Positions 991 through 14,904 of a DNA stretch of 64,000 nucleotides are shown here, piece after piece; position 1 is the first letter of the stretch, and each line of letters begins with the position of its first letter. The position numbers and the translations under genes are program-made. The notes under the pieces were generated by a model. That model was not told the origin of the DNA and did not search any database. It saw only the letters and a program-made list of their open reading frames with translations. The stretch is from a virus: positions 1-64,000 of the IMG/VR virus record IMGVR_UViG_3300047548_001372, one strand, 5' to 3'.

Positions 991-1057
991 ATTATATCAC
1001 TTGCCGCGCACGATGTCAAGAGCTTTGTGTTAGAGAAGCATTAACATCGTGCGCGGG
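991..1057 (-). promoter_or_regulatory. Promoter-hairpin module for the gene at 441-953
   Basis: TATAAT (991-996) and TTGACA (1014-1019) are 17 bp apart. The box of two TAACA-like words with 11-bp period sits at 1028-1046. Perfect 12-bp arms CGCGCACGATGT (1005-1016) / ACATCGTGCGCG (1044-1055) enclose the box. This is the CACGATG arm type. Confidence 0.85.
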
Positions 1058-1063
1058 AATAGC

Positions 1064-1408
1064 CTACCATAGATCTACAGACACATCCCAATTCTTAGGA
1101 AAGAACTGATCTACAAACACTCCTACAGACCTAACATCATCTTGCGTAACAGTACTACGCTCTGTAAGAGCTTCACTATTTACAAAGACTCTGTTATTAA
1201 AACTATCAAAAACTACATTACAGTTACAGACATTGCCTACAATCTCAAAATCTAAACACGCATCATCATTATCCATACCCTGCATGAAAACGCTTACCAG
1301 AATATCATTATGAATAAACCAAAGCCTACCATGCAAATCGTTTACCAAATCGCCTAGAAACGTCGTGTTGTTCTTGAGGATGTTACGAACTGAGGTAACG
1401 TTGTTCAT
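1064..1408 (-). CDS. Unknown small protein (114 aa)
   Basis: Not recognised. It is acidic and beta-rich in appearance, rich in Asn, Asp and Val, with two Cys near residues 77-79 (CNC) and no membrane segment. It has its own consensus promoter (1451-1479) about 40 bases upstream. It sits in the array of individually promoted small genes, so an early or accessory role is inferred from context only. Confidence 0.75.
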   Translation of the reverse strand: MNNVTSVRNILKNNTTFLGDLVNDLHGRLWFIHNDILVSVFMQGMDNDDACLDFEIVGNVCNCNVVFDSFNNRVFVNSEALTERSTVTQDDVRSVGVFVDQFFPKNWDVSVDLW

Positions 1409-1450
1409 TGTGGTTTATTCTTTCTTACTAACTTGCTTGATTACACCAGC

Positions 1451-1516
1451 ATTATACCACAGCCCGCACATCCTGTCAAGAGCTTTCTGTTAGATAAGTG
1501 TTAACAGGATGCGCGG
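1451..1516 (-). promoter_or_regulatory. Promoter-hairpin module for the gene at 1064-1408
   Basis: TATAAT (1451-1456), TTGACA (1474-1479), 17-bp spacer, TAACA box upstream. Arms CCCGCACATCCTGT / ACAGGATGCGCGGG pair over 14 bp with one non-Watson-Crick pair, which is U-G in the minus-strand RNA. Confidence 0.85.
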
Positions 1517-1528
1517 GAATATCTAATA

Positions 1529-1987
1529 CTACTTTACAAAAATTGTCTTAAGTGTTTCAAATAACTCATTTGCAACACTATTTGAAAAATCAATACGCAA
1601 TTCAGCAAATCCTAGTTGCTTTTTTCCAAAATCTGGTACCTTTACCGCATACCGTACCATAAAATAAAATGGTACACTGTTATTACTTAGCTGCGAATTA
1701 TTTACTACTATTTTTAGATAAGGGCTATTGTTGCGCCTATACCAATGATCATAGTACGTGTTATTACTATCTGTAGTGGTAAACCCGTGCCGATCATCAT
1801 CATCAAGCACATACGTATGCAAGTTGTGCGTGCACCGATCTACAGACACATTTACAATACTATCATCACGCTTTACACCGTAAAGCATAAACTTGGTTGG
1901 AGTAATTACAAACTTAGCAGGATTTGTAATTACATAATATACATAGCTTTTCACATACGACGTAGTACCATCGAATTGGGTTTTCAT
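1529..1987 (-). CDS. Unknown protein, paralogue of the 8982-9458 protein
   Basis: A 152-residue protein not matched to a known family. It is clearly related to the protein at 8982: both have P-A-K-F-(V/L)-I-T-P near the N-terminus, a VNxSVDRxTH motif, a DH...FT(T/A)TD segment, and VPFYFxxxxxxxxxxF near the C-terminus. ATG 1987 is chosen because the open frame upstream of it is translated promoter sequence; AGAGAAAAAG precedes this ATG. Expressed from the promoter at 2024-2052. Probably a beta-rich cytoplasmic protein; function unknown. Confidence 0.78.
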   Translation of the reverse strand: MKTQFDGTTSYVKSYVYYVITNPAKFVITPTKFMLYGVKRDDSIVNVSVDRCTHNLHTYVLDDDDRHGFTTTDSNNTYYDHWYRRNNSPYLKIVVNNSQLSNNSVPFYFMVRYAVKVPDFGKKQLGFAELRIDFSNSVANELFETLKTIFVK

Positions 1988-2023
1988 TACTTTTTCTCTA
2001 TCTACTTGCTTGACTACACTGGT

Positions 2024-2090
2024 ATTATACCACTTGCCGCGCATCCTGTCAAGAGCTTTTTGTTAGAAGATCGTTAGCAGGATGCGCGGC
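2024..2090 (-). promoter_or_regulatory. Promoter-hairpin module for the gene at 1529-1987
   Basis: TATAAT (2024-2029), TTGACA (2047-2052), 17-bp spacer, box GTTAG/GTTAG upstream. 13-bp perfect arms GCCGCGCATCCTG / CAGGATGCGCGGC. Confidence 0.85.
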
Positions 2091-2095
2091 TAATG

Positions 2096-2365
2096 TTATT
2101 GCATATGACTAATGATAAAATCGTTAAACCAGCTCTTGGTATACTCCTTTACCTCACTACCATTATATACAATAGTAATCAAATCATCACTATAAAAATC
2201 TGTACCCCATGGTACAACTGCATGTAGTTTGAATTGCATATTTGTTTTACAATAACTCCCTAGCACACACTCACCATGATGCTCAAACGCAAACCAACAA
2301 GTGTTGTCATTATTGAAAACTACGTGCATACCAAAATCTTTTAGTGTTGTTGTTACTTCTGACAT
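2096..2365 (-). CDS. Unknown small protein (89 aa)
   Basis: Not recognised. Two Cys-containing segments (CVLGSYC) lie in a predicted beta-rich core, followed by a C-terminal W-F-x-D-F-I-I helix. Own promoter at 2403-2431. No signal peptide or membrane helix. Confidence 0.72.
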   Translation of the reverse strand: MSEVTTTLKDFGMHVVFNNDNTCWFAFEHHGECVLGSYCKTNMQFKLHAVVPWGTDFYSDDLITIVYNGSEVKEYTKSWFNDFIISHMQ

Positions 2366-2402
2366 TGTCTGTTTCTTTCTAGCTAGCTTCGATTACATTT
2401 GT

Positions 2403-2470
2403 ATTATACCACTTGCCGCGCATCCTGTCAAGAGCTTTTTGTTAGAAAAGTGTTAACATCGTGCGCGAGA
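2403..2470 (-). promoter_or_regulatory. Promoter module with mismatched (mosaic) arms
   Basis: TATAAT (2403-2408) and TTGACA (2426-2431), 17-bp spacer, TAACA box. The promoter-side arm is the CATCCTG type, but the arm after the upstream gene is the CACGATG type, so the middle three positions do not pair. Promoter for 2096-2365. Confidence 0.82.
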
Positions 2471-2498
2471 ATAGTTAATTACTCTTTTACATAAAATA

Positions 2499-2744
2499 TC
2501 ATGTGCGGGGGTTTTGGTCTAATAGCCGTGCCACCATCACATACCGCGCATAGAACGCAGTATGCACGCACAGATCATCTAATGCGTGTAAAACGTTATT
2601 ATGTTCTGATTCTGGAATTAAAGCCAGAATAGATTTTACTACATTTTCCACATACTCCTTGTCACCTTCAGAAACAGCACACATGTTCGCAAGGATTGAA
2701 CGATGGTGTGCTGGAGTTACGTTTGGATAAAGATTGTCAAACAT
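2499..2744 (-). CDS. Unknown small helical protein (81 aa)
   Basis: Not recognised. It looks largely alpha-helical (HHRSILANMCAV, VKSILALIPES, ARYVMVARLL) and soluble. Own promoter at 2783-2811. The leftward message ends near the next module at 2403-2470. Confidence 0.72.
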   Translation of the reverse strand: MFDNLYPNVTPAHHRSILANMCAVSEGDKEYVENVVKSILALIPESEHNNVLHALDDLCVHTAFYARYVMVARLLDQNPRT

Positions 2745-2782
2745 TGTGTTATCCTTCTTTCTATAACTTCGATTACACTAGT

Positions 2783-2836
2783 ATTATACCATACCCGCCC
2801 AACATTGTCTACTGGTTTTTGTTAGAGATGTGCTAA
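2783..2836 (-). promoter_or_regulatory. Promoter module for the gene at 2499-2744
   Basis: TATAAT (2783-2788) and TAGACA (2806-2811), 17-bp spacer, TAACA box present. The promoter-side arm is CCCGCCCAACATTG, with no matching far arm; the upstream gene (2833) ends inside the module. Confidence 0.78.
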
Positions 2837-3054
2837 CGAGTGTTATCTACCCAAATAGCACTAGTGTTGAGAATACGCTTTATATAGTTGTACGCATCCC
2901 AATCGCAAAACTCCCATTTACTCTCGTCGTTATACTTTTCTACCGATAAAATACCGTCGTATTTTCGTATATACACACGATATACATCATCCGGACTTGT
3001 TATTATTAACTCTTCTACACCATCTATACGAGAAACCAGAATAATTGTATACAT
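2833..3054 (-). CDS. Unknown small protein (73 aa)
   Basis: Not recognised. ATG 3054 is preceded by a strong AAGGAGGG ribosome-binding site at 8-base spacing; the longer frame upstream is translated promoter. A compact alpha/beta-looking sequence ending W-V-D-N-T-R. Own promoter at 3091-3119. Confidence 0.76.
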   Translation of the reverse strand: MYTIILVSRIDGVEELIITSPDDVYRVYIRKYDGILSVEKYNDESKWEFCDWDAYNYIKRILNTSAIWVDNTR

Positions 3055-3090
3055 TGTTTTGCCCTCCTTGTTAACTCTGATTACACCAGT

Positions 3091-3156
3091 ATTATACCAC
3101 AGCCCGCGCATCCTGTCAATAGGTTTGTGTTAGAAAAGTGTTAACAGGATGCGCGG
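3091..3156 (-). promoter_or_regulatory. Promoter-hairpin module for the gene at 2833-3054
   Basis: TATAAT (3091-3096), TTGACA (3114-3119), 17-bp spacer, TAACA box. Perfect 13-bp arms CCGCGCATCCTGT / ACAGGATGCGCGG. Confidence 0.86.
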
Positions 3157-3177
3157 CAATTATAAACACCTTAGAAA

Positions 3178-3729
3178 TTAGAAAATAGCTACCCTACTCT
3201 CTCTGGGAAAAGCATACAGCGTGTCATCTTTAATGTGAAACGATGTATACTTTTCTGTCAAAGCAGCGCCACTGTCAAGCGCCATTTTTAAGTTATGTTC
3301 CGCATAATTCTCAAAAACAAAATCATAGGTTGGATTCCTTTTGTAATCGCAATATTGCCATGTTATCCATTGGATAACATGATTTGCCGATGCCCATCGG
3401 CAAATCATAGATTCATTTGTAAAAACATAGAATTGCGTAGCTTTCAGGTAACTTTGCAAGCCATACACACCAGCTACTGCAAGCGCATGTTCCGCATCTG
3501 TACTGACAAAATTGGTATGGTATTTTGCGTACACTGCTACCATAGGGTGTGATTCTACAGAGTCTTTAATATACCAAAAAAGATCCTGTAATTGTGTTGC
3601 AATTTCTCTGTAATCATCCTGATCCATGTCAACAGCGTTTGTTAAATTGGCCAAACGAGGGGCATTAAACAGCCCCATAAGGCGCGTATAGGCATCTAGT
3701 GCTCGTGTGCCGCAATTTACTTCTGTCAT
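3178..3729 (-). CDS. Unknown protein, YHTN paralogue family, copy 2
   Basis: A 183-residue member of the five-copy family and the closest relative of the neighbour at 3831; the first 25 residues (MTEVNCGTRALDAYTRL...) are nearly identical. Motifs: F-W-Y-I-K in the first third, YHTNF, YLKATQFYVFTN, then C-R-W-A and a hydrophobic Trp-rich helix (VIQWITWQYCDY). ATG 3729 is chosen, with GAGAGGAAAG upstream; the frame before it is promoter DNA. Own promoter 3772-3800. The tandem pair implies a recent local duplication. Confidence 0.8.
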   Translation of the reverse strand: MTEVNCGTRALDAYTRLMGLFNAPRLANLTNAVDMDQDDYREIATQLQDLFWYIKDSVESHPMVAVYAKYHTNFVSTDAEHALAVAGVYGLQSYLKATQFYVFTNESMICRWASANHVIQWITWQYCDYKRNPTYDFVFENYAEHNLKMALDSGAALTEKYTSFHIKDDTLYAFPRESRVAIF

Positions 3730-3771
3730 TACTTTCCTCTCTCTCTCTCTCGTTAACTTGATTACACTGGT

Positions 3772-3836
3772 ATTATACCACTTCCCGCGCATCCTGTCAA
3801 GAGCTTTCTGTTAGAAAAGTGTTAACAAAATCACGG
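3772..3836 (-). promoter_or_regulatory. Promoter module for the gene at 3178-3729
   Basis: TATAAT (3772-3777), TTGACA (3795-3800), 17-bp spacer, TAACA box. The far arm is degenerate because the upstream gene's stop codon (3831-3833) falls inside it. Confidence 0.83.
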
Positions 3837-4424
3837 GTATATTACAACTATTTTAGAAAATGGTATTGATATAGGTACGATATTACTACGTGAAAAAGCA
3901 CACAGCACATTGTTATTAATGTGAAAAGAAGTATACTTTTTTGTCATGGAACTACCATCATCAAGTGCCATTTTGAAATTATCTTCTGCATAATTCTGAA
4001 AAGACGTATCATAAATTGGATTCTTTTTCCAATCGCAATATTGCCAAACAATCCAATTCATAATGTGATCTAATGATGCCCACCGACAAATAATAGACTT
4101 ATTTGTAAAAGTGTAAAATTGGCAAGCTTTCAAGTAAGTATGCAAACCATGCATACCTGCCAACTCACACGCATGTTCTGCATCAGCATATACAAAATTA
4201 GTATGATATCTCTCAACATCTTGATACGCCAGCATCATAGGATGCGTTTCTACAGATTCTTTGATATACCAGAAGAGATCTTTGAGCTGGGTAAAAATCT
4301 CTTTGTAATCATCCTGATCTATCTGATCCACGTTAGTAACATTTACCAAACGAGGGGCATTAAACAGCCCCACAAGGCGCGTATAGGCATCTAGCGCACG
4401 TGTCCCACAATTTACTTCTGTCAT
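3831..4424 (-). CDS. Unknown protein, YHTN paralogue family, copy 3
   Basis: A 197-residue tandem paralogue of the 3178 gene. N-terminus and motifs (FWYIK, YHTNF, LKACQFYTFTN, CRWASLDHI) are conserved, but the C-terminus is longer (ending IPFSKIVVIYP) and reads into what is normally the far hairpin arm of the next module, suggesting loss of an earlier stop codon. Own promoter at 4461-4489. Function unknown. Confidence 0.8.
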   Translation of the reverse strand: MTEVNCGTRALDAYTRLVGLFNAPRLVNVTNVDQIDQDDYKEIFTQLKDLFWYIKESVETHPMMLAYQDVERYHTNFVYADAEHACELAGMHGLHTYLKACQFYTFTNKSIICRWASLDHIMNWIVWQYCDWKKNPIYDTSFQNYAEDNFKMALDDGSSMTKKYTSFHINNNVLCAFSRSNIVPISIPFSKIVVIYP

Positions 4425-4460
4425 TTTTATCTCTTTCTTTCGCTAGCTTATTACACTAGT

Positions 4461-4526
4461 ATTATACCACTTACCGCGCACGATGTCAAGAGCTTTCTGT
4501 TAGAAAAGTGTTAACATCGTGCACGG
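4461..4526 (-). promoter_or_regulatory. Promoter-hairpin module for the gene at 3831-4424
   Basis: TATAAT (4461-4466), TTGACA (4484-4489), 17-bp spacer, TAACA box. Arms CCGCGCACGATGT / ACATCGTGCACGG, 13 bp with one G-U pair in the minus-strand RNA. Confidence 0.86.
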
Positions 4527-4539
4527 CAGGTGCTAGGAT

Positions 4540-4737
4540 TCACTCCATCACAGACTCATACATAGCTACCGCATCCAAATATTCACACGCAGTAATAAAA
4601 TCACGAACAGGGCGATATTCAAACGCATGTACCATACCATACACAGGATGCTCTTCTGATCGTACATACTTACCAATTCCTGGTAGTTCTAGCCGCTCAT
4701 CTGCTTGACGATCATGAAACCATACTAGAAACTTCAT
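4540..4737 (-). CDS. Unknown small protein (65 aa)
   Basis: Not recognised. Short, mixed charge, no membrane segment; own promoter at 4766-4794 and a ribosome-binding AAAGGAT ahead of ATG 4737. Confidence 0.7.
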   Translation of the reverse strand: MKFLVWFHDRQADERLELPGIGKYVRSEEHPVYGMVHAFEYRPVRDFITACEYLDAVAMYESVME

Positions 4738-4765
4738 ACTTGTATCCTTTCTTGATTACACTAGC

Positions 4766-4832
4766 ATTATACCACGTGCCGCGCATCCTGTCAACTACTT
4801 TTTGTTAGAAGATCATTAACAGAATGCGCGGT
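4766..4832 (-). promoter_or_regulatory. Promoter-hairpin module for the gene at 4540-4737
   Basis: TATAAT (4766-4771), TTGACA (4789-4794), 17-bp spacer, TAACA box. Arms CCGCGCATCCTGT / ACAGAATGCGCGG pair with one G-U in the minus-strand RNA. Confidence 0.85.
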
Positions 4833-4840
4833 AAGAATTA

Positions 4841-5098
4841 TTACAAGTACATCTCAAAATCTTCGATAGCGATCAATCCCCGCTTCGAAGAGATCACGCG
4901 ATTCACGTGCGCAAGGAACTTCTTGGCGAACTTCTCATCAAAGAAGCTGATCCAATCGTTGGTAAGGGAGTCATGGCGGAAGTTGTAAATCTTCCCTCCC
5001 GGCTTCTTTTCCTGCATAACCTTGTAGGCTACGCCATCATACTCCACATAGTAGCTAACGTACGCACCGCCAATGTCCTGCATGAAGATGTTACGCAT
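4841..5098 (-). CDS. Unknown small protein (85 aa)
   Basis: Not recognised. Its codon use is more GC-rich than its neighbours, which may point to separate acquisition. An aromatic, basic core (VSYYVEYDGVAYKVMQ; W-x-S-F-F-D) precedes a basic helix and an acidic tail. Own promoter 5136-5164. Confidence 0.72.
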   Translation of the reverse strand: MRNIFMQDIGGAYVSYYVEYDGVAYKVMQEKKPGGKIYNFRHDSLTNDWISFFDEKFAKKFLAHVNRVISSKRGLIAIEDFEMYL

Positions 5099-5135
5099 TG
5101 GGTTTTGCTTTCTAGTTAACTTCGATTACATTCGT

Positions 5136-5202
5136 ATTATAGCACAGCCGCGCATATTTGTCTACAGGTTTTTGTTAGAGAAGTGTTAACGTTATGCGCG
5201 GG
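5136..5202 (-). promoter_or_regulatory. Promoter-hairpin module for the gene at 4841-5098
   Basis: TATAAT (5136-5141), TAGACA (5159-5164), 17-bp spacer, TAACA box. Arms share CCGCGCATA / TATGCGCGG (9 bp). Confidence 0.82.
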
Positions 5203-5204
5203 TA

Positions 5205-5591: not shown

Positions 5592-5629
5592 AACCTTCGG
5601 CTCTTTCTATTTCAATTGATTACACAAGC

Positions 5630-5686
5630 ATCATACCATACTGAAAGCTACTCTGTCAACTAGTTTGTGTTAGAGAAACGTTAACA
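5630..5686 (-). promoter_or_regulatory. Promoter module (18-bp spacer, no GC arms) for 5205-5591
   Basis: TATGAT (5630-5635) and TTGACA (5654-5659) are 18 bp apart. The TAACA box is kept upstream of the -35. No GC-rich inverted repeat. Confidence 0.75.
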
Positions 5687-6058
5687 TACCTTCATCTTGA
5701 CAAGCTCTATCCCATTGTGGTATACTACGTAGGCTATACCTGCCTCATATATCAAATCATAACATGATTGACAAGGTTTTGATATTGTAGGTTTATTATT
5801 TCTATCTATTCTAGCGCTATAACATATAGTGTTTGTAATATCAGCCCGCGCACGTATGATAGCGCGTGCTTCGGCATGGATTGTACAAACACTTGATCTA
5901 TAACGCTGCTGCACAGGATGCGTGCGATAACAATTGCACGCAACAGAAAAGACACGCTTTCCAGAAGCTATAATACTACCGTGTTTATAATTACATTGCG
6001 ATAATTCCGCAACTTTGAGCGCTAGTTGAAAATTGGTATAATCTCTGTTAGTAAGCAT
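5681..6058 (-). CDS. Cytidine/deoxycytidylate deaminase-family protein
   Basis: 125 residues with the zinc-binding signature of the CMP/dCMP deaminase superfamily: H61-A-E63 and P95-C96-x-x-C99, where Glu63 is the expected proton shuttle. In phages such enzymes convert dCMP to dUMP, the substrate for thymidylate synthase, fitting the ThyX at 15969; free-cytidine or RNA/DNA deamination cannot be excluded. The start codon at 6058 directly follows the T-run of the upstream gene's terminator and no Shine-Dalgarno lies at normal spacing (the nearest, AGGGA, is in the terminator stem), so translation or expression looks unusual. Confidence 0.82.
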   Translation of the reverse strand: MLTNRDYTNFQLALKVAELSQCNYKHGSIIASGKRVFSVACNCYRTHPVQQRYRSSVCTIHAEARAIIRARADITNTICYSARIDRNNKPTISKPCQSCYDLIYEAGIAYVVYHNGIELVKMKVC

Positions 6059-6098
6059 AAAAAAAAAATAATCCCTATATGTTTGTATAGGGATTATT
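6059..6098 (-). terminator. Rho-independent terminator after the 6106-6618 gene
   Basis: A perfect 13-bp stem (6067-6079 with 6086-6098) and 6-base loop are followed on the minus strand by a run of about ten T, immediately before the ATG of the deaminase gene. Confidence 0.88.
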
Positions 6099-6105
6099 GT
6101 AAAAA

Positions 6106-6618
6106 CTACTTATCTACTGCTACGTAAAACTTTCCTACTTGCCCCAAATTTACTTCATAATTCCAAAACGTTTCACCATCATGCACCATTTCAATACTTG
6201 CTTTTACTTTACATCGTGTAGTGATAATTCCTCCAATCCGATACACTCCCACAGTACCAGTATGAACGCTACCATACAGTACCGAAGTATTACGCTGCAC
6301 AGCAGCATCATACTCTTCTTTTGTAATTTGCTTTTCTAAAAGCTGTTTGTCTAGCTTATTAGCCTCATACGTACTATTGTATTTGAAGACACGCAAATCT
6401 AAGGTGTCTTGCTTTTCGCCAAGATATTCAAAACCATCTTCGAATATCTGATTTAGATAAACTGTTGGCTTTTGTAGTTTCCACACAAGCCATCCTGTTT
6501 CACGATCTACAATATAATAATTTCCCTTCTGCTCTTTACCATCACACTTGATAATCAAAAACCGTGATAGAAAACTAGCCTTGCGATCCTTCTTAGCCTT
6601 TGCTGCTGCTGATGGCAT
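6106..6618 (-). CDS. Unknown protein (170 aa) with basic N-terminus
   Basis: Not recognised. Residues 1-16 are Ala/Lys-rich and basic. The rest looks beta-rich (GNYYIVDRETGWLVWKL, VGVYRIGGIITTRCKV) with a central lysine-rich helix. It ends at a strong terminator. The promoter region upstream (6685-6740) is a rearranged form of the usual module. Confidence 0.75.
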   Translation of the reverse strand: MPSAAAKAKKDRKASFLSRFLIIKCDGKEQKGNYYIVDRETGWLVWKLQKPTVYLNQIFEDGFEYLGEKQDTLDLRVFKYNSTYEANKLDKQLLEKQITKEEYDAAVQRNTSVLYGSVHTGTVGVYRIGGIITTRCKVKASIEMVHDGETFWNYEVNLGQVGKFYVAVDK

Positions 6619-6684
6619 GAAACATTCCTTTGCTAAAAATCCTGAAAAGAGAATTGCTTACCTAGTTGCTTACCTTATGGTTTT

Positions 6685-6740
6685 ATTATACCATACGTTG
6701 CGCGGGAATAGTGTTAGAGAAGTATTATACTTACCCCCGC
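6685..6740 (-). promoter_or_regulatory. Degenerate promoter module for the gene at 6106-6618
   Basis: TATAAT at 6685-6690 is kept, but no -35 match is found 17 bp upstream and the TAACA-like box abuts the spacer. A second TATAAT is at 6724-6729. GC-rich words (GCGCGGG, CCCCCGCGC) remain in rearranged order. It looks like a module that has lost part of its core. Confidence 0.5.
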
Positions 6741-6750
6741 GCAATATCAG

Positions 6751-6999: not shown

Positions 7000-7002
7000 T
7001 AT

Positions 7003-7127: not shown

Positions 7128-7180
7128 ATTATACCACTTCCCGCGCATCCTGTCAAGAGCTTTGTGTTAGAAAAGTGTTA
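7128..7180 (-). promoter_or_regulatory. Promoter module for the membrane-peptide operon
   Basis: TATAAT (7128-7133), TTGACA (7151-7156), 17-bp spacer, TAACA box. The promoter-side arm CCCGCGCATCCTGT has no partner because the upstream gene (stop at 7182) ends in the box. Confidence 0.83.
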
Positions 7181-7181
7181 G

Positions 7182-7514
7182 CTATACCATATATACAATA
7201 TTTTTTGAAAATCCTACAATAGACAATTCAAAAACATCCTTGATTTTCTCAAAAATATTATTGCTACAATCACGAACTTCTACTTGTAGCGTGTCATTAT
7301 TAAACTGACAATACAAATCTACCAACACACTATCAATAACTATGTAGAAAATACACCCATCCTGAAACTTATAAGTAATTTTGTAATCAGGATCTACCCA
7401 AGGACTATTGTCATACATATATACATACTGATGCGTGGTGTGGTTTAGTGGTACCGTTTTTACAATAGTACCAATCTTTTCCAAACCGCTCTTAATACTA
7501 TCTGCTGCGTTCAT
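7182..7514 (-). CDS. Unknown protein (110 aa)
   Basis: Not recognised. Beta-rich middle (VYMYDNSPWVDPDYKITYKF, FYIVIDSVLVDLY) and a C-terminal helix. Its layout loosely recalls other small proteins of the array (8476, 10873, 11858), but no convincing alignment was made. Own promoter at 7542-7570. Confidence 0.72.
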   Translation of the reverse strand: MNAADSIKSGLEKIGTIVKTVPLNHTTHQYVYMYDNSPWVDPDYKITYKFQDGCIFYIVIDSVLVDLYCQFNNDTLQVEVRDCSNNIFEKIKDVFELSIVGFSKNIVYMV

Positions 7515-7541: not shown

Positions 7542-7613
7542 ATTATACCATTAGCCGCGCAAGATGTCAAGAGCTTTTTGTTAAAAACCCGTTAACACCT
7601 TGCGCGGCTAATG
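7542..7613 (-). promoter_or_regulatory. Promoter-hairpin module with the longest arms
   Basis: TATAAT (7542-7547), TTGACA (7565-7570), 17-bp spacer. Arms 7549-7567 and 7595-7613 pair over 19 bp, extended by CATTAG/CTAATG, with one non-Watson-Crick pair (U-G in minus-strand RNA). CAAGATG/CACCTTG arm type. Promoter for 7182-7514. Confidence 0.87.
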
Positions 7614-7615: not shown

Positions 7616-8131
7616 TTACTTAATACAATTGATCCATCTACACTCATCAAATGTACTAGTGTTCTTAATAACTACACTCATATCAGCTTCACGAAACACA
7701 GACCTAGTAAACTCATTTTCCTCTAACTTCACGCTAAAAAACCATGGTGAAGTAATATCACATACAGTAAAATAATTGCGCAAGAATTGCGCATTTGTTA
7801 AGTTACACTGAAACAGATGTGCTCTGTTGAAAGAGCAGTTAATAAAGATACAATCACTAAACTCTACGTACCGTGCTTGCACAAAATCAAAATGACAGTT
7901 GACAAACACGGTACCAGAAAAACTGCTACCAGAAAAATCACTACCGTTGAAAGACGCCTTATTAAACACACACCCACGCATGTTATCCGGCATCCTACAT
8001 TCGTGAAACGCTACGCTTGTCGTAGTAAGGTTATCAAACGTTAGGCCGTAAAACGACACACCAAGAAACGTATCGTATGGAGTAGGATTGGTAAGGCTGT
8101 CAATCTGTGCACTGGTAGGGTTGGTAAGCAC
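7616..8131 (-). CDS. Pentapeptide-repeat protein
   Basis: 171 residues. From about residue 45 to 130 a five-residue periodicity is clear (FNKASFNGSDFSGSSFSGTV, then CIFINCSFNRAHLFQCNL), with Phe/Leu at the centre and small residues before it, the pattern that folds as a right-handed quadrilateral beta-helix. Some members mimic DNA and shield or inhibit gyrase; that role here is inference. The frame opens with GTG at 8131 after AGAAAGAA. It has no promoter of its own and probably shares that of the lipoprotein gene upstream. Confidence 0.82.
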   Translation of the reverse strand: MLTNPTSAQIDSLTNPTPYDTFLGVSFYGLTFDNLTTTSVAFHECRMPDNMRGCVFNKASFNGSDFSGSSFSGTVFVNCHFDFVQARYVEFSDCIFINCSFNRAHLFQCNLTNAQFLRNYFTVCDITSPWFFSVKLEENEFTRSVFREADMSVVIKNTSTFDECRWINCIK

Positions 8132-8398: not shown

Positions 8399-8464
8399 AT
8401 TATACCATACCCGCCCAACGTTGTCTACTGGTTTTTGTTAGAAAAACGTTAACATTGGGCGGGT
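8399..8464 (-). promoter_or_regulatory. Promoter-hairpin module (CCGCCC arm type)
   Basis: TATAAT (8399-8404), TAGACA (8422-8427), 17-bp spacer, TAACA box. Arms ACCCGCCCAACGTT / AACATTGGGCGGGT: 14 bp with one G-U in the minus RNA. Both arms have changed together from the usual GCGCGG form. Promoter for 8167-8361 and probably 7616-8131. Confidence 0.86.
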
Positions 8465-8475
8465 TTAGGGAAACG

Positions 8476-8908: not shown

Positions 8909-8974
8909 ATTATACCACAGCCCGCGCATCCTGTCAATAGGTTTTTGTTAGAACTTTGTTAACAGGATGCGCGG
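8909..8974 (-). promoter_or_regulatory. Promoter-hairpin module for the gene at 8476-8862
   Basis: TATAAT (8909-8914), TTGACA (8932-8937), 17-bp spacer, TAACA box, perfect arms CCGCGCATCCTGT / ACAGGATGCGCGG. Confidence 0.86.
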
Positions 8975-8981
8975 CAATTAT

Positions 8982-9458
8982 TTAATAACGATATACAAAA
9001 GCATCCTTTAACATCCTGAAAATCTCTCTCCCTTCATCATTAGGAAAATAGATACAAGCTCCAATAGATTGTAGCTGTCTTTCCCGAAAGCCTCTAATAC
9101 GTGTTGGCACGTGTGCTGTGAAGTAAAATGGTACGTTATCATCATCTAACTGTGAATCATATACCGTAATCATTAAACTAGGATTATCCAAACGATTATG
9201 GATAGAATGATAGTATTGTGATGTGATGTCTGTAGCAGTAAAGTTATTCATATGATCATAAATAACATCATGATCATCAGACAACGTACGTGAAACCCGT
9301 GTACATGTGGTATGCGTGCGCCTATCTACAGACGCATTGACAATATCACCATACTTTGTAGCAGTAAATGAAAACCTGTTTGGAGTAATCAGAAACTTAG
9401 CAGGGTAGTTTTCCCAAACGCCATCTACGATACGCTTTGAAAATCCTTCGAATTGCAT
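8982..9458 (-). CDS. Unknown protein, paralogue of the 1529-1987 protein
   Basis: 158 residues. It shares with the 1529 protein the PAKFLITP segment, VNASVDRRTH, the DH...FTATDI segment and VPFYFTA...F. The region upstream of its ATG keeps the hairpin arms but its -35 and -10 are decayed (see 9486-9532), so it probably depends on read-through from the 9544-9915 gene. Function unknown. Confidence 0.78.
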   Translation of the reverse strand: MQFEGFSKRIVDGVWENYPAKFLITPNRFSFTATKYGDIVNASVDRRTHTTCTRVSRTLSDDHDVIYDHMNNFTATDITSQYYHSIHNRLDNPSLMITVYDSQLDDDNVPFYFTAHVPTRIRGFRERQLQSIGACIYFPNDEGREIFRMLKDAFVYRY

Positions 9459-9485
9459 GATAGTTGTTCTTTCTATTTACTAACT

Positions 9486-9532
9486 CCCGCGCATCGTTTC
9501 TAAAACATATAGTTATTAAAGCGATGCGCGGG
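9486..9532 (-). repeat. Hairpin kept where the promoter has decayed
   Basis: Perfect 11-bp arms CCCGCGCATCG (9486-9496) / CGATGCGCGGG (9522-9532) stand at the usual module position. The aligned -35 reads TAGAAA and the -10 TAAATA, and the TAACA box is not recognisable. The arm type differs from all others. Confidence 0.75.
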
Positions 9533-9543
9533 AATACTAAGCA

Positions 9544-9915
9544 CTATCCAATATAATACCCGTACAATCCACTCAAATCATTCGTATATTTGATAAGCGC
9601 AACTTCGATCGTGTCCAGTGTTACTGGAGTATCACCAACAGCGCCAGCGCCACGTACGCCACCAGCAGGACGAACACCTAGCGCTAACGTGTTACCATCC
9701 CAGAAGCCACGCTTGGCTTCTGGCAAACTAGGACAGAGATCACGCAACACGTTTACTGTTGCTGCGTGTCCGTTTAGGTTTTCCGTAACACGTGCTAGCA
9801 TAGCTGGAAGCTCTGCGATAGAGATACGCTTCCATACCAACATACCATCATCAAACGAGGGTGAAACGATCGTGCTAATCAGCGTGAGCTTGGTATCCTT
9901 GTGTAGTGAGAACAT
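9544..9915 (-). CDS. Possible AcrIII-1 (DUF1874-like) ring nuclease, anti-CRISPR candidate
   Basis: 123 residues, GC-richer than its neighbours. The layout resembles the DUF1874/AcrIII-1 family: an N-terminal strand (LTLISTIVSPSF), a short loop, R-I-S-I-A-E-L-P helix, then G49-H50-A-A-T leading a helix (conserved GH-x-x-T, whose His is catalytic in AcrIII-1), a W-D-G-N-T-L-A-L strand resembling the family's GD-x-A strand, and a C-terminal V-T-L-D-x-I-E element. Known members cleave cyclic tetra-adenylate and so switch off type III CRISPR signalling. The match is by eye and moderate; the GH-x-x-T motif is its strongest part. Own promoter at 9950-9978. Confidence 0.5.
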   Translation of the reverse strand: MFSLHKDTKLTLISTIVSPSFDDGMLVWKRISIAELPAMLARVTENLNGHAATVNVLRDLCPSLPEAKRGFWDGNTLALGVRPAGGVRGAGAVGDTPVTLDTIEVALIKYTNDLSGLYGYYIG

Positions 9916-9949
9916 GGTGTATTGTCCTTTCTTGATTACTTACATTGGT

Positions 9950-10003
9950 ATTATACCACTTCCCGCGTAACTTGTCTATAGACTTTTGTTAGAAGATCGT
10001 TAA
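9950..10003 (-). promoter_or_regulatory. Promoter module for the gene at 9544-9915
   Basis: TATAAT (9950-9955), TAGACA (9973-9978), 17-bp spacer, TAACA box; the upstream small gene ends in the GTTAAC word, so the far arm is missing. Confidence 0.8.
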
Positions 10004-10125
10004 CAAAAATCGCTGTAATCAATACCAGTATGTGTTGGATATTGCCTACTGTTATTGATTTTTGCTAGCTCATTCCGCTGCGTGCGTGCGAGAATATAAA
10101 ACATAACCATCTTGATAAACTTCAT
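10000..10125 (-). CDS. Small protein (41 aa), unknown
   Basis: A short frame from ATG 10125 (preceded by GAAAGAGTGTATACA) to TAA in the GTTAAC box of the next module. N-terminus MKFIKMVMFYILA is hydrophobic and basic; the rest is polar. It follows the 10153 gene by 27 bases with no promoter between, so it is probably the third gene of that operon. Confidence 0.55.
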   Translation of the reverse strand: MKFIKMVMFYILARTQRNELAKINNSRQYPTHTGIDYSDFC

Positions 10126-10152
10126 TGTATACACTCTTTCTAATTAGTTAGC

Positions 10153-10377: not shown

Positions 10378-10389
10378 GATAGTTATTCC

Positions 10390-10416
10390 TTGTTATTATT
10401 ATTATTATTATTATTA
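10390..10416. repeat. Triplet repeat (TAA)n after a stop codon
   Basis: Seven to nine uninterrupted TAA units on the minus strand begin with the stop codon of the 10414 gene, giving in-frame tandem stops, and end just before the ribosome-binding site of the 10153 gene. Confidence 0.8.
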
Positions 10417-10761: not shown

Positions 10762-10798
10762 TGGTAACTTCTTTCTATGTAAATTCGATTACACTGGT

Positions 10799-10864
10799 AT
10801 TATACCACTTCCCGCGCAAGGTGTCAAGAGCTTTTTGTTAGAGAAGTGTTAACACCTTGCGCGG
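10799..10864 (-). promoter_or_regulatory. Promoter-hairpin module for the 10761-10000 operon
   Basis: TATAAT (10799-10804), TTGACA (10822-10827), 17-bp spacer, TAACA box. Perfect arms CCGCGCAAGGTGT (10812-10824) / ACACCTTGCGCGG (10852-10864): the CAAGGTG type, changed in both arms. Confidence 0.87.
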
Positions 10865-10872
10865 ATAATGTA

Positions 10873-11259
10873 TTACGCAAAATTGTTATACATAACACCC
10901 AGTTGCTCTTGAAGCAAAATACCAAAAGCAGCGCTATGTGTGAAGTATACTTCTAGGTGTGTGCTGTTGGAGTCTGCTTTTGCGTACATCCCATCAGCCA
11001 TCTTTTCAGGATTGAAAATCATTTCCCAACTACGATCACTCCAAAATAACAACACTGTTCCGTTTTTGTACGTAATGCGATAGCCGTTCTGACATTCACG
11101 TACAATCTTTACTAATCCCTGCAAATTGTGCTTCTCATTCACACCATACTTCGAATTGTAAAACGATACGTCAAAAAACTCTAGCCCTAGTACAAACGTA
11201 CCCTTATAGTGTACGGAGTAATCATCCTGTCCGTGAACTACCATGTCTGACATCAGCAT
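10873..11259 (-). CDS. Unknown protein (128 aa)
   Basis: Not recognised. A beta-rich domain with N-G-Y-R-I-T-Y-K, then W-E-M-I-F-N-P-E-K-M and a C-terminal V-Y-F-T-H-x-x-A helix. The protein at 11858 has a similar order (D-G-Y-V-I-K-Y-K, W-I-F-S-P-K-I-M, V-V-F-S-D-E-E), so the two may be distant paralogues. Own promoter 11298-11326. Confidence 0.74.
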   Translation of the reverse strand: MLMSDMVVHGQDDYSVHYKGTFVLGLEFFDVSFYNSKYGVNEKHNLQGLVKIVRECQNGYRITYKNGTVLLFWSDRSWEMIFNPEKMADGMYAKADSNSTHLEVYFTHSAAFGILLQEQLGVMYNNFA

Positions 11260-11297
11260 TGCGTTTGTTCTTTCTAACTAACTTCGATTACATTCGT

Positions 11298-11363
11298 ATT
11301 ATATCACAGCCGCGCACCATTGTCTACTGGTTTTTGTTAGAGTAGCGTTAACGTTATGCGCGG
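11298..11363 (-). promoter_or_regulatory. Promoter-hairpin module for the gene at 10873-11259
   Basis: TATAAT (11298-11303), TAGACA (11321-11326), 17-bp spacer, TAACA box; arms pair only over CCGCGCA / TGCGCGG. Confidence 0.8.
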
Positions 11364-11839
11364 ATATTTATACTTGCATTTGTATAAAAATATCGAATAA
11401 GGTTTTTAATTTCTGGAATATACTTTGTAGCATCTGTCACAAGGCTTGCGCTTGCTACCAGCTGCTCAAATGTACATGTGTTTGTAATTGGATTATCACT
11501 CTTGTGATATGAAAACACACCATCAGCAAAGGTGAAATTACACAACGAACTAATATCACCAATAATAATAAAGCGTGTATATTTTCCTGCATCCTGCTGC
11601 TCTTCTGCTGCAAGATTTGTACAAACTTGTTTGATTAAAATCTGATCTGGCAAAGTAAACATACTTCTGCTATAGATCCAATATAGCACAGCCTCATTAT
11701 CAGTAATTGTGTATCCAATACACTTTGTACAATACCAATCTTCTTTTAATTTTGAAAACGTAGTTGGAAAACTACCTAAAACATCACGACTATGCAACAC
11801 ACGATACGTAAAACCAGGACTAACTTCTCTTACCTTCAT
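11354..11839 (-). CDS. Unknown protein (161 aa)
   Basis: Not recognised. Contains a W-Y-C-T-K-C motif (one C-x-x-C pair), beta-rich segments and a C-terminal helix. It follows the 11858 gene by 18 bases and appears to be the second gene of that operon. Confidence 0.74.
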   Translation of the reverse strand: MKVREVSPGFTYRVLHSRDVLGSFPTTFSKLKEDWYCTKCIGYTITDNEAVLYWIYSRSMFTLPDQILIKQVCTNLAAEEQQDAGKYTRFIIIGDISSLCNFTFADGVFSYHKSDNPITNTCTFEQLVASASLVTDATKYIPEIKNLIRYFYTNASINIRA

Positions 11840-11857
11840 AGGTACATTTTACTCTTT

Positions 11858-12220
11858 CTAAATTACTTGTAGATTTTCTCGAATTGCACACACTTCTTCA
11901 TCGGAGAAAACTACATACATGTGCTGGGTAGGATTGCCATCAAATATACGAATATACCAAATATTTAGATCGTTTTTTGCTACAGTCATCATAATTTTAG
12001 GAGAAAATATCCAATCTTTAGGATATTTGTATTTAATAACATAACCATCAGGATAATTTGTAAGACGAATACTCTGTAAGCAAAGATACTGTCTTTCTAT
12101 ATTTTTAAAATTAAATATAAACGAAGTTTTATCGATACCTATGTTTGCATAAAGGTCTACTGATGAAAGATCAACATCAAAATACTGCACTACTCTTGGC
12201 ATAAGATGTAAACTTTTCAT
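11858..12220 (-). CDS. Unknown protein (120 aa), possible relative of 10873
   Basis: Not recognised. Beta-rich with D-G-Y-V-I-K-Y-K and W-I-F-S-P-K-I-M segments resembling those of the 10873 protein. Good AAGGAGAAAAT ribosome-binding site before ATG 12220. First gene after the promoter at 12273-12301. Confidence 0.75.
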   Translation of the reverse strand: MKSLHLMPRVVQYFDVDLSSVDLYANIGIDKTSFIFNFKNIERQYLCLQSIRLTNYPDGYVIKYKYPKDWIFSPKIMMTVAKNDLNIWYIRIFDGNPTQHMYVVFSDEEVCAIRENLQVI

Positions 12221-12272
12221 ATTTTCTCCTTATTCTGTATTTAGATATGCGGTGTGCTTTTGGTATATTGGT

Positions 12273-12339
12273 ATTTTACCATACCCCGCGCATCCTGTCA
12301 ACTACTTTTTGTTAGAAGATTGCTAACAGTTTGCGCGGG
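12273..12339 (-). promoter_or_regulatory. Promoter-hairpin module for the 12220-11354 operon
   Basis: TAAAAT (12273-12278), TTGACA (12296-12301), 17-bp spacer, TAACA box; arms CCCGCGCA...TGT / ACA...TGCGCGGG with two central mismatches. Confidence 0.82.
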
Positions 12340-12343
12340 AATA

Positions 12344-12484
12344 CTATATCACTTTACACAACACCCAACTACCAGCTACAAACTTATAGACTAATCCAAC
12401 ACTATCTTGATATACCGCCTTATATTGCATACCAAGCAGAGTATAGTAGTATACTGTTGTTGCTTGTTTTTTAACACATACCAT
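12344..12484 (-). CDS. Small protein (46 aa), unknown
   Basis: A short frame from ATG 12484, two bases after the stop of the 12487 gene, to TAG 12344. Basic N-terminus MVCVKKQ, then an aromatic, valine-rich sequence (TTVYYYTLLGM; YKFVAGSWVLCKVI) with beta character. No clear ribosome-binding site of its own; coupling to the upstream gene is likely. Function unknown. Confidence 0.5.
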   Translation of the reverse strand: MVCVKKQATTVYYYTLLGMQYKAVYQDSVGLVYKFVAGSWVLCKVI

Positions 12485-12486
12485 AA

Positions 12487-12993
12487 TTATACTTCTACAT
12501 AATTACATAGAGGCTTAGCAACAAGCCTACCAGTGTAATTTATTGTAAAGTTACAATACTTATTGCTAATATCAGCACCAGCATATTCACCCCTACGAAT
12601 AATATCACGATTGTTAGAATCAATGGATTCATCTGGCAAATAAAGCAGGATAATAACATCCATTAGTGCTTCTAAACCTACCCAACGAAAAAACACATAA
12701 TCCATATGAAATACAGTGTAACGAAGATTTGCAATACAATATTCCAAATCCTCGTTATCACGGAAATAATCAAATGTGTCATGAAAATATAGTGGGAGCT
12801 CTTTTGCTATCGCTTCTCGATTCTGCACCATCATACAAAGTTTACCATTGTTTTCTAAATCATTCTTAAATAAGAGCTCTGCATGATAGTGAAACCTTGC
12901 TAGACTAAGCCATATATCACTAGAACTATAATCATTTTCTAACATATCCATAATACGATTGTATTGCCGCAATGCCTCTTGTGCGTGATTCAT
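12487..12993 (-). CDS. Unknown protein, YHTN paralogue family, copy 4
   Basis: 168 residues from ATG 12993, chosen because AAAGGAG precedes it. Close tandem relative of the 13022 protein (shared QYNRIMDML, FHY, Y-F-H, F-F-R-W-V-G and Y-L-P-(D/N)-E-S-I-D-S) and a more distant relative of the proteins at 441, 3178 and 3831 by the order of F-H-Y, YFH, RYTVFH and RW-plus-helix elements. Ends in Val-Glu-Val within TAGAAGTATAA, as do 441 and 22834. Confidence 0.8.
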   Translation of the reverse strand: MNHAQEALRQYNRIMDMLENDYSSSDIWLSLARFHYHAELLFKNDLENNGKLCMMVQNREAIAKELPLYFHDTFDYFRDNEDLEYCIANLRYTVFHMDYVFFRWVGLEALMDVIILLYLPDESIDSNNRDIIRRGEYAGADISNKYCNFTINYTGRLVAKPLCNYVEV

Positions 12994-13021
12994 TAAACGC
13001 TCCTTTTGCATATTATATAAT

Positions 13022-13558
13022 TTATACGTCTACACAAACCATCAGCCTACCAAAGTATGTTTTAGCAAAATAACTATACTTATCGGCAATATACTTATCA
13101 GTAAGGTTTTTACCTGCAATTTTACCAGTATGAATAATATCACGATTCTCAGAATCAATGGATTCATTTGGTAAATAAAGCAAAATAATAACATCTATAA
13201 TTTTTTCAATACCTACCCAGCGGAAAAATGCGCGTTTAGTATGAAACACTGTATATTGAATATTTGCAAGATACTCTTTACTTTCTCCAAGAAGTAAACT
13301 ACCGTCGAAATTATAGCTTTCATAATTCGTATGAAAATATACAGGATATATAATTCCAGTAGATGCCTCATTCTGTGCTAGTGTATACAACGTGCCGTCG
13401 TTTTCCAAATCATACTTAAATAATGATTCTACTGTATAATGAAATGCTGCTACGTTATTTGACATATCATCATCACTAAAACTACCATCAGCTAGCATAT
13501 CCATAATACGATTGTATTGTAGCAATGCCTCTTGTGCGTACATTTGTGCGTAGTTCAT
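13022..13558 (-). CDS. Unknown protein, YHTN paralogue family, copy 5
   Basis: 178 residues. Conserved segments include YFHTNY (the YHTN equivalent), IQYTVFH, FFRWVG and the conserved Y-L-P-N-E-S-I-D-S. It leads an operon with the 12487 and 12344 genes from the atypical promoter at 13579-13607. Function unknown; the repeated duplication is the main clue to importance. Confidence 0.8.
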   Translation of the reverse strand: MNYAQMYAQEALLQYNRIMDMLADGSFSDDDMSNNVAAFHYTVESLFKYDLENDGTLYTLAQNEASTGIIYPVYFHTNYESYNFDGSLLLGESKEYLANIQYTVFHTKRAFFRWVGIEKIIDVIILLYLPNESIDSENRDIIHTGKIAGKNLTDKYIADKYSYFAKTYFGRLMVCVDV

Positions 13559-13578
13559 TAAATACCTCTTTCATACGT

Positions 13579-13633
13579 AGTATAGCACATTGTTACCCAA
13601 TGTGCTATACTTTTTTGCTAGAATATTGTTAGA
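13579..13633 (-). promoter_or_regulatory. Variant promoter with 13-bp operator-like inverted repeat
   Basis: TGC-TATACT (extended -10, 13579-13584) lies 17 bp from a weak -35 TAGCAC (13602-13607). The TAACA-like box is kept at its normal distance. The GC arms are replaced by a perfect inverted repeat GTATAGCACATTG / CAATGTGCTATAC (13580-13592 / 13598-13610) covering both hexamers, as an operator would. Drives 13558 to 12344. Confidence 0.75.
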
Positions 13634-13635
13634 AC

Positions 13636-14046
13636 TTATACCGGCCAATAGTACTTACGTTCTGGTTTTTCTTCCCAGTTGTATTTACTATAGAATGTAT
13701 AATCCTTGTGTAGTAATGCTGCTCTGTGCGTGGTGTGAATATCCTTCCCCCACCATGGGGGAATGTAGGTTTTTGTAAAGCTGTTATGGAATGCTTGGAT
13801 TTTTTCTAGGCAGGTATCCTTAAAGCCACGATCAACCCATGCTTCACACATATACACACCATATTCTACTAACGCATTAGTATAACCCTTCCACATTTTT
13901 GTAGCAGGATGGTTTACCCATCCTTTTGACAGCCCATGCAGCGTATTGAGAATTTGAAGCGTTTCTACACGCTGCTTACCTAAACGCTTGTCATCAAGCA
14001 CAGACGCACACAAAGGCATATCAGGATACGGTACAAAGGTTTGCAT
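13636..14046 (-). CDS. MSMEG_6728-type / pyrimidine-dimer-glycosylase-like protein
   Basis: 136 residues with the conserved opening M-Q-T-F-x-P-Y-P-D, D-x-x-R-L-G-K-Q-R-V-E-x-L-Q, H-P-A-x-x-M-W-x-G-Y, and W-W-G...H-x-x-H-R-A-A-L-L-x-K-D-x-x-F-Y. This is the pattern of a small protein family seen in actinobacteria and phages and often labelled MSMEG_6728 family or pyrimidine dimer DNA glycosylase-like; DNA-repair activity is family annotation, not shown here. It overlaps the stop of the 14046-14258 gene and shares its promoter. Confidence 0.7.
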   Translation of the reverse strand: MQTFVPYPDMPLCASVLDDKRLGKQRVETLQILNTLHGLSKGWVNHPATKMWKGYTNALVEYGVYMCEAWVDRGFKDTCLEKIQAFHNSFTKTYIPPWWGKDIHTTHRAALLHKDYTFYSKYNWEEKPERKYYWPV

Positions 14047-14258
14047 TAGTCAATGCTTTCTACTACGTCACGCAGCGATTTTACATGACGCAAATTGATT
14101 TTGGTATCATCATCGGAAAGAATAACGTTTGTGTATTTTGGCTGTTTGATAATAGGCTTTTCTGCCTTTGGCATATTGCGCTGTGCCTTGTCTTTTAGTT
14201 TTCGCGCACGTCGTTTTGCTAGTTCCGACTTTACTTCGCTTGTGGACTTATCGTACAT
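14046..14258 (-). CDS. Small basic protein (70 aa)
   Basis: Not recognised. The N-terminal 36 residues are strongly basic (KRRARKLKDKAQR), the C-terminal part acidic. Could bind nucleic acid. First gene from the promoter at 14304-14332; its end overlaps the next start by one base. Confidence 0.72.
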   Translation of the reverse strand: MYDKSTSEVKSELAKRRARKLKDKAQRNMPKAEKPIIKQPKYTNVILSDDDTKINLRHVKSLRDVVESID

Positions 14259-14303
14259 GATGTGATTCCTTGTCTAATTGATTACGCTGCTGATTACTTT
14301 GCT

Positions 14304-14356
14304 AGTATACCACACGTTGTTTAATCTGTCAAGAGCTTTTTGTTAGAGAAACGTTA
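14304..14356 (-). promoter_or_regulatory. Promoter module without GC arms for 14258-13636
   Basis: TATACT (14304-14309), TTGACA (14327-14332), 17-bp spacer, TAACA box at the usual distance. No GC-rich inverted repeat. Confidence 0.82.
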
Positions 14357-14800
14357 ACGCGGCATCCATCGTACTTCTTTACCATGTGCAACTACAAGAG
14401 AGCCAAGAGCGCGTACAAATGACTCATGCTCTACATGCGTGAACATAATACGAACAATTGTTGTTCTATTTTTAGAATCTGCTATTACAATCTCCCAGAT
14501 AGGATTTCCTATATCAGCCCTACGAAAAATCGTAACATCAGATGTATAAACATTCCTATTTGTATATCTAAATTCAAAACGATTATCTACATAGTTAGCA
14601 TATTCCATAGTAGCTAAATTATGTTCATGTGTATATCCTTCTCGAATGACGCTTAGCTCAAATGTGTCTTTATCAACTTCAATTTGTACTTGCGAAGAAG
14701 TTAAATCATAGTAGTCTACTGTTGTACCGGCATGCAGCATTGAACTATATGCAAACGTAGAATACTTTACTGGTTTACCAGTAAACACTTTTGTTTCCAT
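14354..14800 (-). CDS. Unknown protein (148 aa)
   Basis: Not recognised. ATG 14800 is chosen, as earlier in-frame starts read the promoter. Beta-rich throughout (VQIEVDKDTFELSVI, YVDNRFEFRYTNRNVY, WEIVIADSKNRTTIVRIMF) with a C-terminal helix. Promoter 14838-14866. Confidence 0.74.
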   Translation of the reverse strand: METKVFTGKPVKYSTFAYSSMLHAGTTVDYYDLTSSQVQIEVDKDTFELSVIREGYTHEHNLATMEYANYVDNRFEFRYTNRNVYTSDVTIFRRADIGNPIWEIVIADSKNRTTIVRIMFTHVEHESFVRALGSLVVAHGKEVRWMPR

Positions 14801-14837
14801 TGTTGTTATTCTTTCTGTATGTTTTTGATATGCTGTG

Positions 14838-14904
14838 ATTATACCAATTGCCGCGCAAAATATCAAGATGTTTGTGTTAGAAAATCGTTAACATCTTGCG
14901 CGGC
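14838..14904 (-). promoter_or_regulatory. Promoter-hairpin module for the gene at 14354-14800
   Basis: TATAAT (14838-14843), TTGATA (14861-14866), 17-bp spacer, TAACA box. Arms GCCGCGCAAAATAT (14850-14863) / ACATCTTGCGCGGC (14891-14904): 14 bp including two non-Watson-Crick pairs, both U-G in the minus RNA. Confidence 0.85.

Follow-up and report, generated by a model that had tools for sequence, protein, structure and literature searches.

Cassettes that join a hairpin to a promoter at phage gene junctions are already known. Among them are the promoter-early stem-loop (PeSL) cassettes, which Arbiol et al. 2010 and Comeau et al. 2014 reportedly described in T4-like phages such as RB49. In phage T7, hairpins that lie between early genes and near promoters are RNase III processing sites, separating the messages and leaving them with structured 3' ends; RNase III processing involves the cutting of RNA duplexes of about 20 bp or longer. 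A further arrangement is found in IMG/VR virus record IMGVR_UViG_3300047548_001372, of whose 85,328 bp the first 64,000 nucleotides (the window) were analyzed. An array of small genes in this window is served by 21 near-identical promoter modules, many of which carry a hairpin that links the end of one gene to the promoter of the next. These hairpins resemble the T7 sites in lying between early genes and adjoining promoters, cleavage of their stems being hypothetical; the hairpin at T7 promoter C, in contrast, lies past the start site and not over the -35 element and spacer.

PeSL cassettes are mentioned in passing for T4-like phages, as a hairpin followed by a promoter, in PMC4503421. They share with the modules a strong sigma-70 early promoter combined with a stem-loop, location at junctions of small non-essential genes, high copy number and signs of shuffling. 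The two differ in geometry. None of ten strong stem-loops near early-type promoters of RB49 reaches the spacer; the -35 begins only after each of them has ended, and most are terminators with U-runs, whereas in the modules the stem overlaps both -35 and spacer, lacks a U-run and has co-varying arms. The carrier differs as well, this phage not being T4-like: it has a PolA-type DNA polymerase and a remote terminase and portal, and no T4-like core was seen in it. The ESAS repeats of Cluster K mycobacteriophages are 17-bp elements with a consensus for each subcluster, placed next to translation starts with spacers of 4-13 bp (PMC3203893). Like the modules they are inverted repeats present in many copies in association with small non-structural genes, but neither promoter overlap nor a gene-end role is described for them (PMC3203893). 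Hairpins of the T4 gene e type contain an internal late promoter and mask the downstream translation start (PMC3014915). There too the promoter lies within the hairpin-encoding region and folding is restricted to read-through RNA; in the modules, unlike these, neither arm extends as far as the start site. A stem that overlaps -35 and spacer base-for-base, whose arms co-vary and which recurs in unrelated phages, was not described in the literature searched, which left most subscription journals outside.

Anatomy and covariation of the promoter modules

The record holds a tailed-phage gene set (PolA-type polymerase, DnaB-like helicase, primase, ThyX and a remote terminase), and megablast against 50,697 phage records gave no near match. 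The array, whose genes were called from open reading frames only and are mostly of unknown function, extends from 0.4 to 15.7 kb on the minus strand, which carries all genes and promoters of the modules. Its promoters read TTGACA or TAGACA, 17 nt, TGnTATAAT; most score 11-12 of 12 consensus bases in addition to the TG ahead of the -10, and judged by sequence they are strong, sigma-70-like promoters of early type at gene junctions.

Named here by the plus-strand coordinate of the first -35 base, the modules share a single layout and align almost without gaps. The order on the minus strand is the stop codon of the previous gene, the 5' arm, a GTTAAC-N5-TCTAACA box, about 9 nt, the -35, a spacer containing the 3' arm, TGn and TATAAT. 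In about 14 of the 21 the arm that follows the stop codon pairs with an arm formed from the end of the -35 and the spacer, over a core of 7-16 bp (CCGCGCATCCTG with CAGGATGCGCGG); the 3' arm opens with the final two bases of the -35. In most modules the whole -35 joins the stem by pairing, one constant G.U included, with TGTTAA at the first half-box, which extends the stem to 16 bp around a 21-nt loop, and in clear cases the hairpin begins 0-21 nt past the stop codon. A sequence-only reading of this DNA had drawn a hairpin from each gene end to the next promoter. The link itself holds up, as does a stem over -35 and spacer with the box in its loop; the 3' arm, placed by that reading between -35 and -10, does occupy the spacer but also takes in -35 bases, and the pairing is found at about 14 junctions, not after every gene.

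The box in the hairpin loop consists of direct-repeat half-sites 11 bp apart, with invariant positions, upstream of the -35, in an arrangement of the OmpR/PhoB type, and is probably a regulator site. The record codes for no Trans_reg_C protein, which makes a host protein or a regulator of another type a possible ligand.

The sense RNA of the 14 stem-bearing modules is predicted to fold with about -17 to -45 kcal/mol, with sense stems of 16 bp and additional inner stems of up to 30 bp. No U-run follows, only 2-3 T occurring in the 8 nt 3' of the stem. The same phage also uses terminators with U-runs: one at 302-328 (minus), behind gene 441-953, with which the array ends, and a terminator-like hairpin at 6067-6098 (minus), after gene 6106-6618. 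The remark that the hairpin is not a standard terminator is thus confirmed.

Pairing of the arms exceeds what the controls produce. Among the 16 modules that share one register, 88.3% of cells pair, compared with 34-43% when the partner is slid, and the covariation score is 0.234 against 0.114 after shuffling (0 of 500 shuffles reached it). With all registers included, a module's own arms give -16.5 kcal/mol and permuted arms -12.9, no better value arising in 20,000 permutations; for six representative arm types the true assignment ranks first of 720. These shuffle, slide and permutation controls leave in the relatedness among paralogous modules.

Every arm type named in the sequence-only reading was found. 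The CATCCTG type forms the hairpins of modules 2052 (2024-2099, core about 2037-2089), 3119 (3091-3156, hairpin 3104-3156) and 8937 (8909-8974, hairpin 8922-8974). To the CACGATG type belong modules 1019 (991-1056) and 4489 (4461-4532); the former comprises the hairpin 1004-1056 (CCGCGCACGATGTTAA/TTGACATCGTGCGCGG), box 1028-1045, -35 1014-1019 and -10 991-996, and the latter a long hairpin at 4468-4532 with a single G.U. The CAAGGTG/CAAGATG type is found in modules 7570 (7542-7613), where a near-continuous 30-bp hairpin at 7549-7613 gives -45.5 kcal/mol as sense RNA, 10827 (10799-10870, CAAGGTG hairpin 10806-10870) and 14866 (14838-14904, CAAGATG hairpin 14850-14904 with two G.U). Module 8427 (8399-8468) has a TAGACA promoter and pairs its CCCGCCCAA arm (CCCGCCCAATGTT/AACGTTGGGCGGG) with a register shift of 3. 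A further matched module type is CATA. Single G.U pairs also occur in the stems of modules 1479 (1451-1517, hairpin 1463-1517) and 4794 (4766-4831, hairpin 4779-4831, CATTCTG/CAGGATG), and module 5164 (5136-5201, TAGACA) has its hairpin at 5148-5201 (CCGCGCATA/TATGCGCGG) with a register shift of 1. Only the outer part of the stem is retained in modules 11326 (11298-11363, TAGACA, short stem CCGCGCA/TGCGCGG) and 12301 (12273-12339, CCCGCGCA/TGCGCGGG with an inner mismatch, -10 TAAAAT). Matched types outside the modules are CATCG (9483-9535), an exchanged-arm stem (6698-6744) and CAATTC (84097-84146 of the record). The compensatory changes cluster in three stem columns and the modules are paralogues related by duplication, so they represent only about 5-8 independent events. 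Pairing nevertheless seems to be kept by selection. That it is itself selected had been claimed outright: the covariation beyond controls agrees with this, and proof it is not, the modules being recombining paralogues with mosaic arms that template-switch repair could also have matched.

In other modules the arms are mixed or missing. Module 2431 (2403-2468) sets a 5' arm of the CACGATG type against a 3' arm of the CAGGATG (CATCCTG) type, a mismatched mosaic of the kind expected from exchange inside the loop, and in module 3800 (3772-3838) the promoter and box are accompanied by a degenerate 5' arm, likewise mosaic and mismatched. Promoter and box without a real stem are found in modules 2811 (2783-2837, TAGACA, 5' arm absent), 5659, 7156 (7128-7182, 5' arm absent), 9978 (9950-10004, TAGACA) and 14332 (14304-14358). 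In all of these but 9978 the frame of the upstream gene continues into the box, whose sequence supplies its stop codon; at 2811 this is gene 2833-3111. The mosaic arms of 2431 and the arms missing elsewhere suggest shuffling between copies, in which the cassette would recombine and the stem could be lost. Recombination would account for spread and mosaicism, not for the matching of arms.

The promoter accordingly persists where an arm is lost, and the converse separation occurs as well. At 9483-9535 (minus), between genes 9544-9915 and 8982-9458, there is a perfect stem of a unique type (ATTCCCGCGCATCG/CGATGCGCGGGAGT, CATCG) with no -35, box or -10; this arm had been taken as part of the next promoter, and there is no promoter there at all. 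Two other perfect stems, one at 6698-6744 and one at 84097-84146 of the record, have outlasted their -35, with nothing more than TATGGTATAAT remaining. The first of these (6690-6744, minus) has the GC block of its arms swapped (TTGCGCGGGGGTA/TATTCCCGCGCAA), followed by CGTATGGTATAAT. Perfect stems without promoter or -35 argue that the hairpin is retained for its own sake and is separable from the promoter.

Similar hairpins in other phages

Neither a search of Rfam at the gathering threshold (in the window) nor DNA-pattern scans of viral and genome collections gave a match or an additional true copy of the module, and a ThyX query gave no match. The early region is missing from G007, a relative whose terminase is 99% identical, and G008 (terminase 48%) has few promoters and no such hairpin modules. 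A pattern scan did recover a separate group of six IMG/VR phages, G001-G006 (records L020, L088, L013, L023, L036 and L052), which show no similarity by tblastx to this phage or to its relative G008. These also have arrays of small genes with their own promoters and TTAAC direct repeats. Five of them, G001-G005, contribute 32 hairpin promoters in which the -35 lies in the loop or inner stem, the 3' arm lies in the spacer, and the arms vary from promoter to promoter; covariation among 12 of the 32 is 0.398 against 0.117, with 0 of 500 shuffles reaching it. All 32 hairpin promoters follow an open frame, 45 codons or longer, whose end falls between -57 and +4 of the -35 (mostly between -23 and +4), compared with 93 of 152 others, and sometimes the TGA within TTGACA is the stop codon of the gene. 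For 20 of 30 of the hairpins the sense RNA folds more stably than the antisense, as compared with 27 of 98 control promoters. A single additional case of such a hairpin promoter is L181:52. The TTAAC direct repeat of G001-G006 occurs in three layouts: abutting the -35, upstream of the -35 hairpin, or reversed, at a distance of about 20 nt ahead of the -35.

RB49 (NC_005066) has a shorter form, in which a hairpin, for example TTGACAGGGGATCGGTGATCCCCTATACT, lies wholly inside the 17-nt spacer. This occurs at 7 of 42 promoters, where 1.5% are expected; six of the seven lie directly behind annotated stop codons, and the remaining one, which belongs to the late region, probably arose by chance. The six early-type promoters are at 43031, 33335, 25338, 58416, 158969 and 134549 (minus), where a short, GC-rich hairpin with a GGGGA...TCCCC core fills the spacer and the arms differ with compensation. 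As in the modules, a hairpin in a 17-nt spacer comes right after a stop codon and its arms show compensating differences; unlike them, the stems are short and sit entirely between -35 and -10, with no box in the loop. The conserved GGGGA/TCCCC core could alternatively be an operator. No description of these spacer hairpins was found in the searchable literature.

Possible roles of the hairpin

The module may be viewed as two overlapping elements that use common DNA. As DNA it would be a near-consensus sigma-70 promoter of the host type, with an extended -10 and an 11-bp direct-repeat box upstream; as RNA read through from the preceding gene it would be a GC-rich hairpin beginning just past that gene's stop codon. 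The transcript of the downstream promoter would start beyond the hairpin and exclude it, so the hairpin would be a 3'-terminal part of the message from the gene before. There it would fix or protect the 3' end, as a block to 3' exonucleases or as a double-stranded processing site, and tightly packed, separately promoted early genes would thereby yield separate stable mRNAs. Placing the 3' arm in the spacer, whose sequence RNA polymerase reads little, would save space. We give about an even chance to this interpretation, of a gene-end/promoter overlap cassette whose hairpin acts in the RNA of the upstream gene by protection or processing; an mRNA 3'-end or processing element had also been among the proposals of the sequence-only reading, and we infer the same as the favored one. 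In its favor are the match of the arms beyond controls, hairpin starts close behind stop codons, the persistence of hairpin and promoter each without the other, the gene ends ahead of all 32 hairpin promoters of G001-G005 and the RB49 spacer hairpins behind stop codons. Anatomy, covariation, separability, the tie to stop codons and the missing U-run are observations; action as RNA, by protection or processing and not by termination, is inference.

The direction of imperfect pairs bears on whether RNA is the acting molecule. Among one-sided changes at fixed stem positions (k 0-11), read on the sense strand, there are eight G.U and no A.C, the single A.C lying just outside these positions, in the box. 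Such a pattern fits pairing in sense RNA only, and may be taken as weak evidence for it. Several points weigh on the other side. A strand-biased mutation could equally yield an excess of G.U; sense and antisense folding do not differ significantly in this phage (10 of 20, Wilcoxon p = 0.15); and in G001-G005 G.U and A.C, counted without gaps, are evenly balanced, 10 to 12, although some of the A.C resemble single-base bulges. Gene calls, too, come from open reading frames only. Furthermore, 5-7 of the 21 modules have no working stem, the arm being absent or a mismatched mosaic, so at some junctions the stem is dispensable.

A hairpin that acts in RNA might instead stop polymerase arriving from the preceding gene and so shield the next promoter, as an intrinsic terminator or insulator whose U-run has been sacrificed because the -10 must follow. 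At every junction the two genes point the same way and each has its own promoter, a setting in which insulation would be useful; RB49 puts true terminators at such junctions when given room, and hairpin-then-promoter is also the order of the PeSL logic (PMC4503421). Against it are the 2-3 T after the stem, in a region that has real U-run terminators, and the hairpin at 9483, which would silence gene 8982-9458; a strong terminator would be odd there because that gene has no visible promoter. For these reasons protection or processing is put ahead of termination, an insulator in the form of an efficient terminator, as had been suggested, becomes less likely, and we consider the terminator or insulator reading unlikely on the whole, weak termination without a U-run being possible.

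Two other accounts dispense with RNA or with selection. Were the hairpin to act as DNA, modulating the promoter or a binding protein in the form of a cruciform or a folded single strand, its overlap with -35 and spacer would be natural, as would the position of the -35 itself in a 5-nt loop in G001-G005 and the extended arms that surround the promoter element. But the hairpin at 9483 exists without a promoter, the hairpin promoters of G001-G005 always stand behind a gene end, the variable arms rule out one sequence-specific operator for the arms, and loops of 21 nt make extrusion unlikely here; we regard this account as very improbable. If, on the other hand, pairing is unselected, the cassettes would simply have spread by recombination, their arms having been matched by template-switch (quasi-palindrome) repair or copied together. 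The mosaic modules such as 2431, with exchange inside the loop, and the gene paralogues within the array are consistent with this, and template switching across loops of 21-28 nt is possible. Copying, however, yields no new matched types, and yet there are at least eight distinct matched pairs, including the exchanged-arm stem 6698-6744; similar matched hairpins also occur in unrelated phages. Absence of selection is therefore improbable.

More broadly, stretches of 40-70 bp that serve in DNA as a sigma-70 promoter and, once transcribed, as the 3'-end hairpin of the gene before may be a recurrent phage design, evolved independently in this phage and in G001-G005 and, in shorter form, in RB49; this proposal is tentative, and we hold it at somewhat less than an even chance. 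If true, gene-end signals and promoters can overlap base-for-base in compact viral genomes, and junctions of this kind will be overlooked or misinterpreted by annotation programs that seek a separate terminator or promoter. The proposal offers a testable account of the end-to-end packing, in phages, of dozens of small genes that each have a promoter. A single genome supplies natural variants with arms matched, mismatched or missing, or with no promoter, and the related form in RB49, which can be propagated on laboratory E. coli, makes the question open to testing.

Other hairpins and genes of the record

Two more hairpins are associated with promoters of the array. One of another type, at 13579-13611 (minus, AGTATAGCACATTG/CAATGTGCTATACT), has a likely -10 within its 3' arm and a box-like sequence upstream; the other, a small one at 15712-15735 (minus, GCAGCATAGC/GCTATACTGC), lies within the promoter at 15742 (TTGACT/TATACT). 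An inverted repeat at 15890-15953 (24 bp, 96% complementary, 16-nt loop) marks the border of the array. Paralogous gene pairs within it (3178-3792/3831-4424, 12487-13011/13022-13558 and 1529-2044/8982-9458) indicate duplication inside the array. Its genes also include a pentapeptide-repeat protein (7616-8131, minus) and a dCMP-deaminase-like protein (5681-6058, minus), which sits after the U-run terminator and has no visible promoter of its own.

Elsewhere in the window, a 24-bp hairpin at 39320-39386 (minus, ATATGACGCGCACATTATTTTGTT/AGTAGAATAATGTGCGCGTTATGT) separates two genes of the structural region and has no promoter. Palindromes at 28982 (minus, TAGGTAAAATTACCTA) and 54099 (plus, TAGGGGAAAATTACCCTA) stand immediately upstream of a -35 and are possibly operators by their sequence, the second being kept in G007. 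At 54099 a 7-bp repeat on either side of the -35 resembled a further module; G007 does not preserve the outer arms, and the repeat was put down to chance. An intergenic perfect palindrome of 34 nt at 30407-30440 (GTGGTATTATATGTGCGCGCACATATAATACCAC) presents TATAAT on both strands. Beyond the window, at 68643-68681 and 74524-74563 of the record, plus-strand transcripts have promoters with the -10 inside a 5'-leader hairpin, and at the former G007 keeps the pairing with altered bases.

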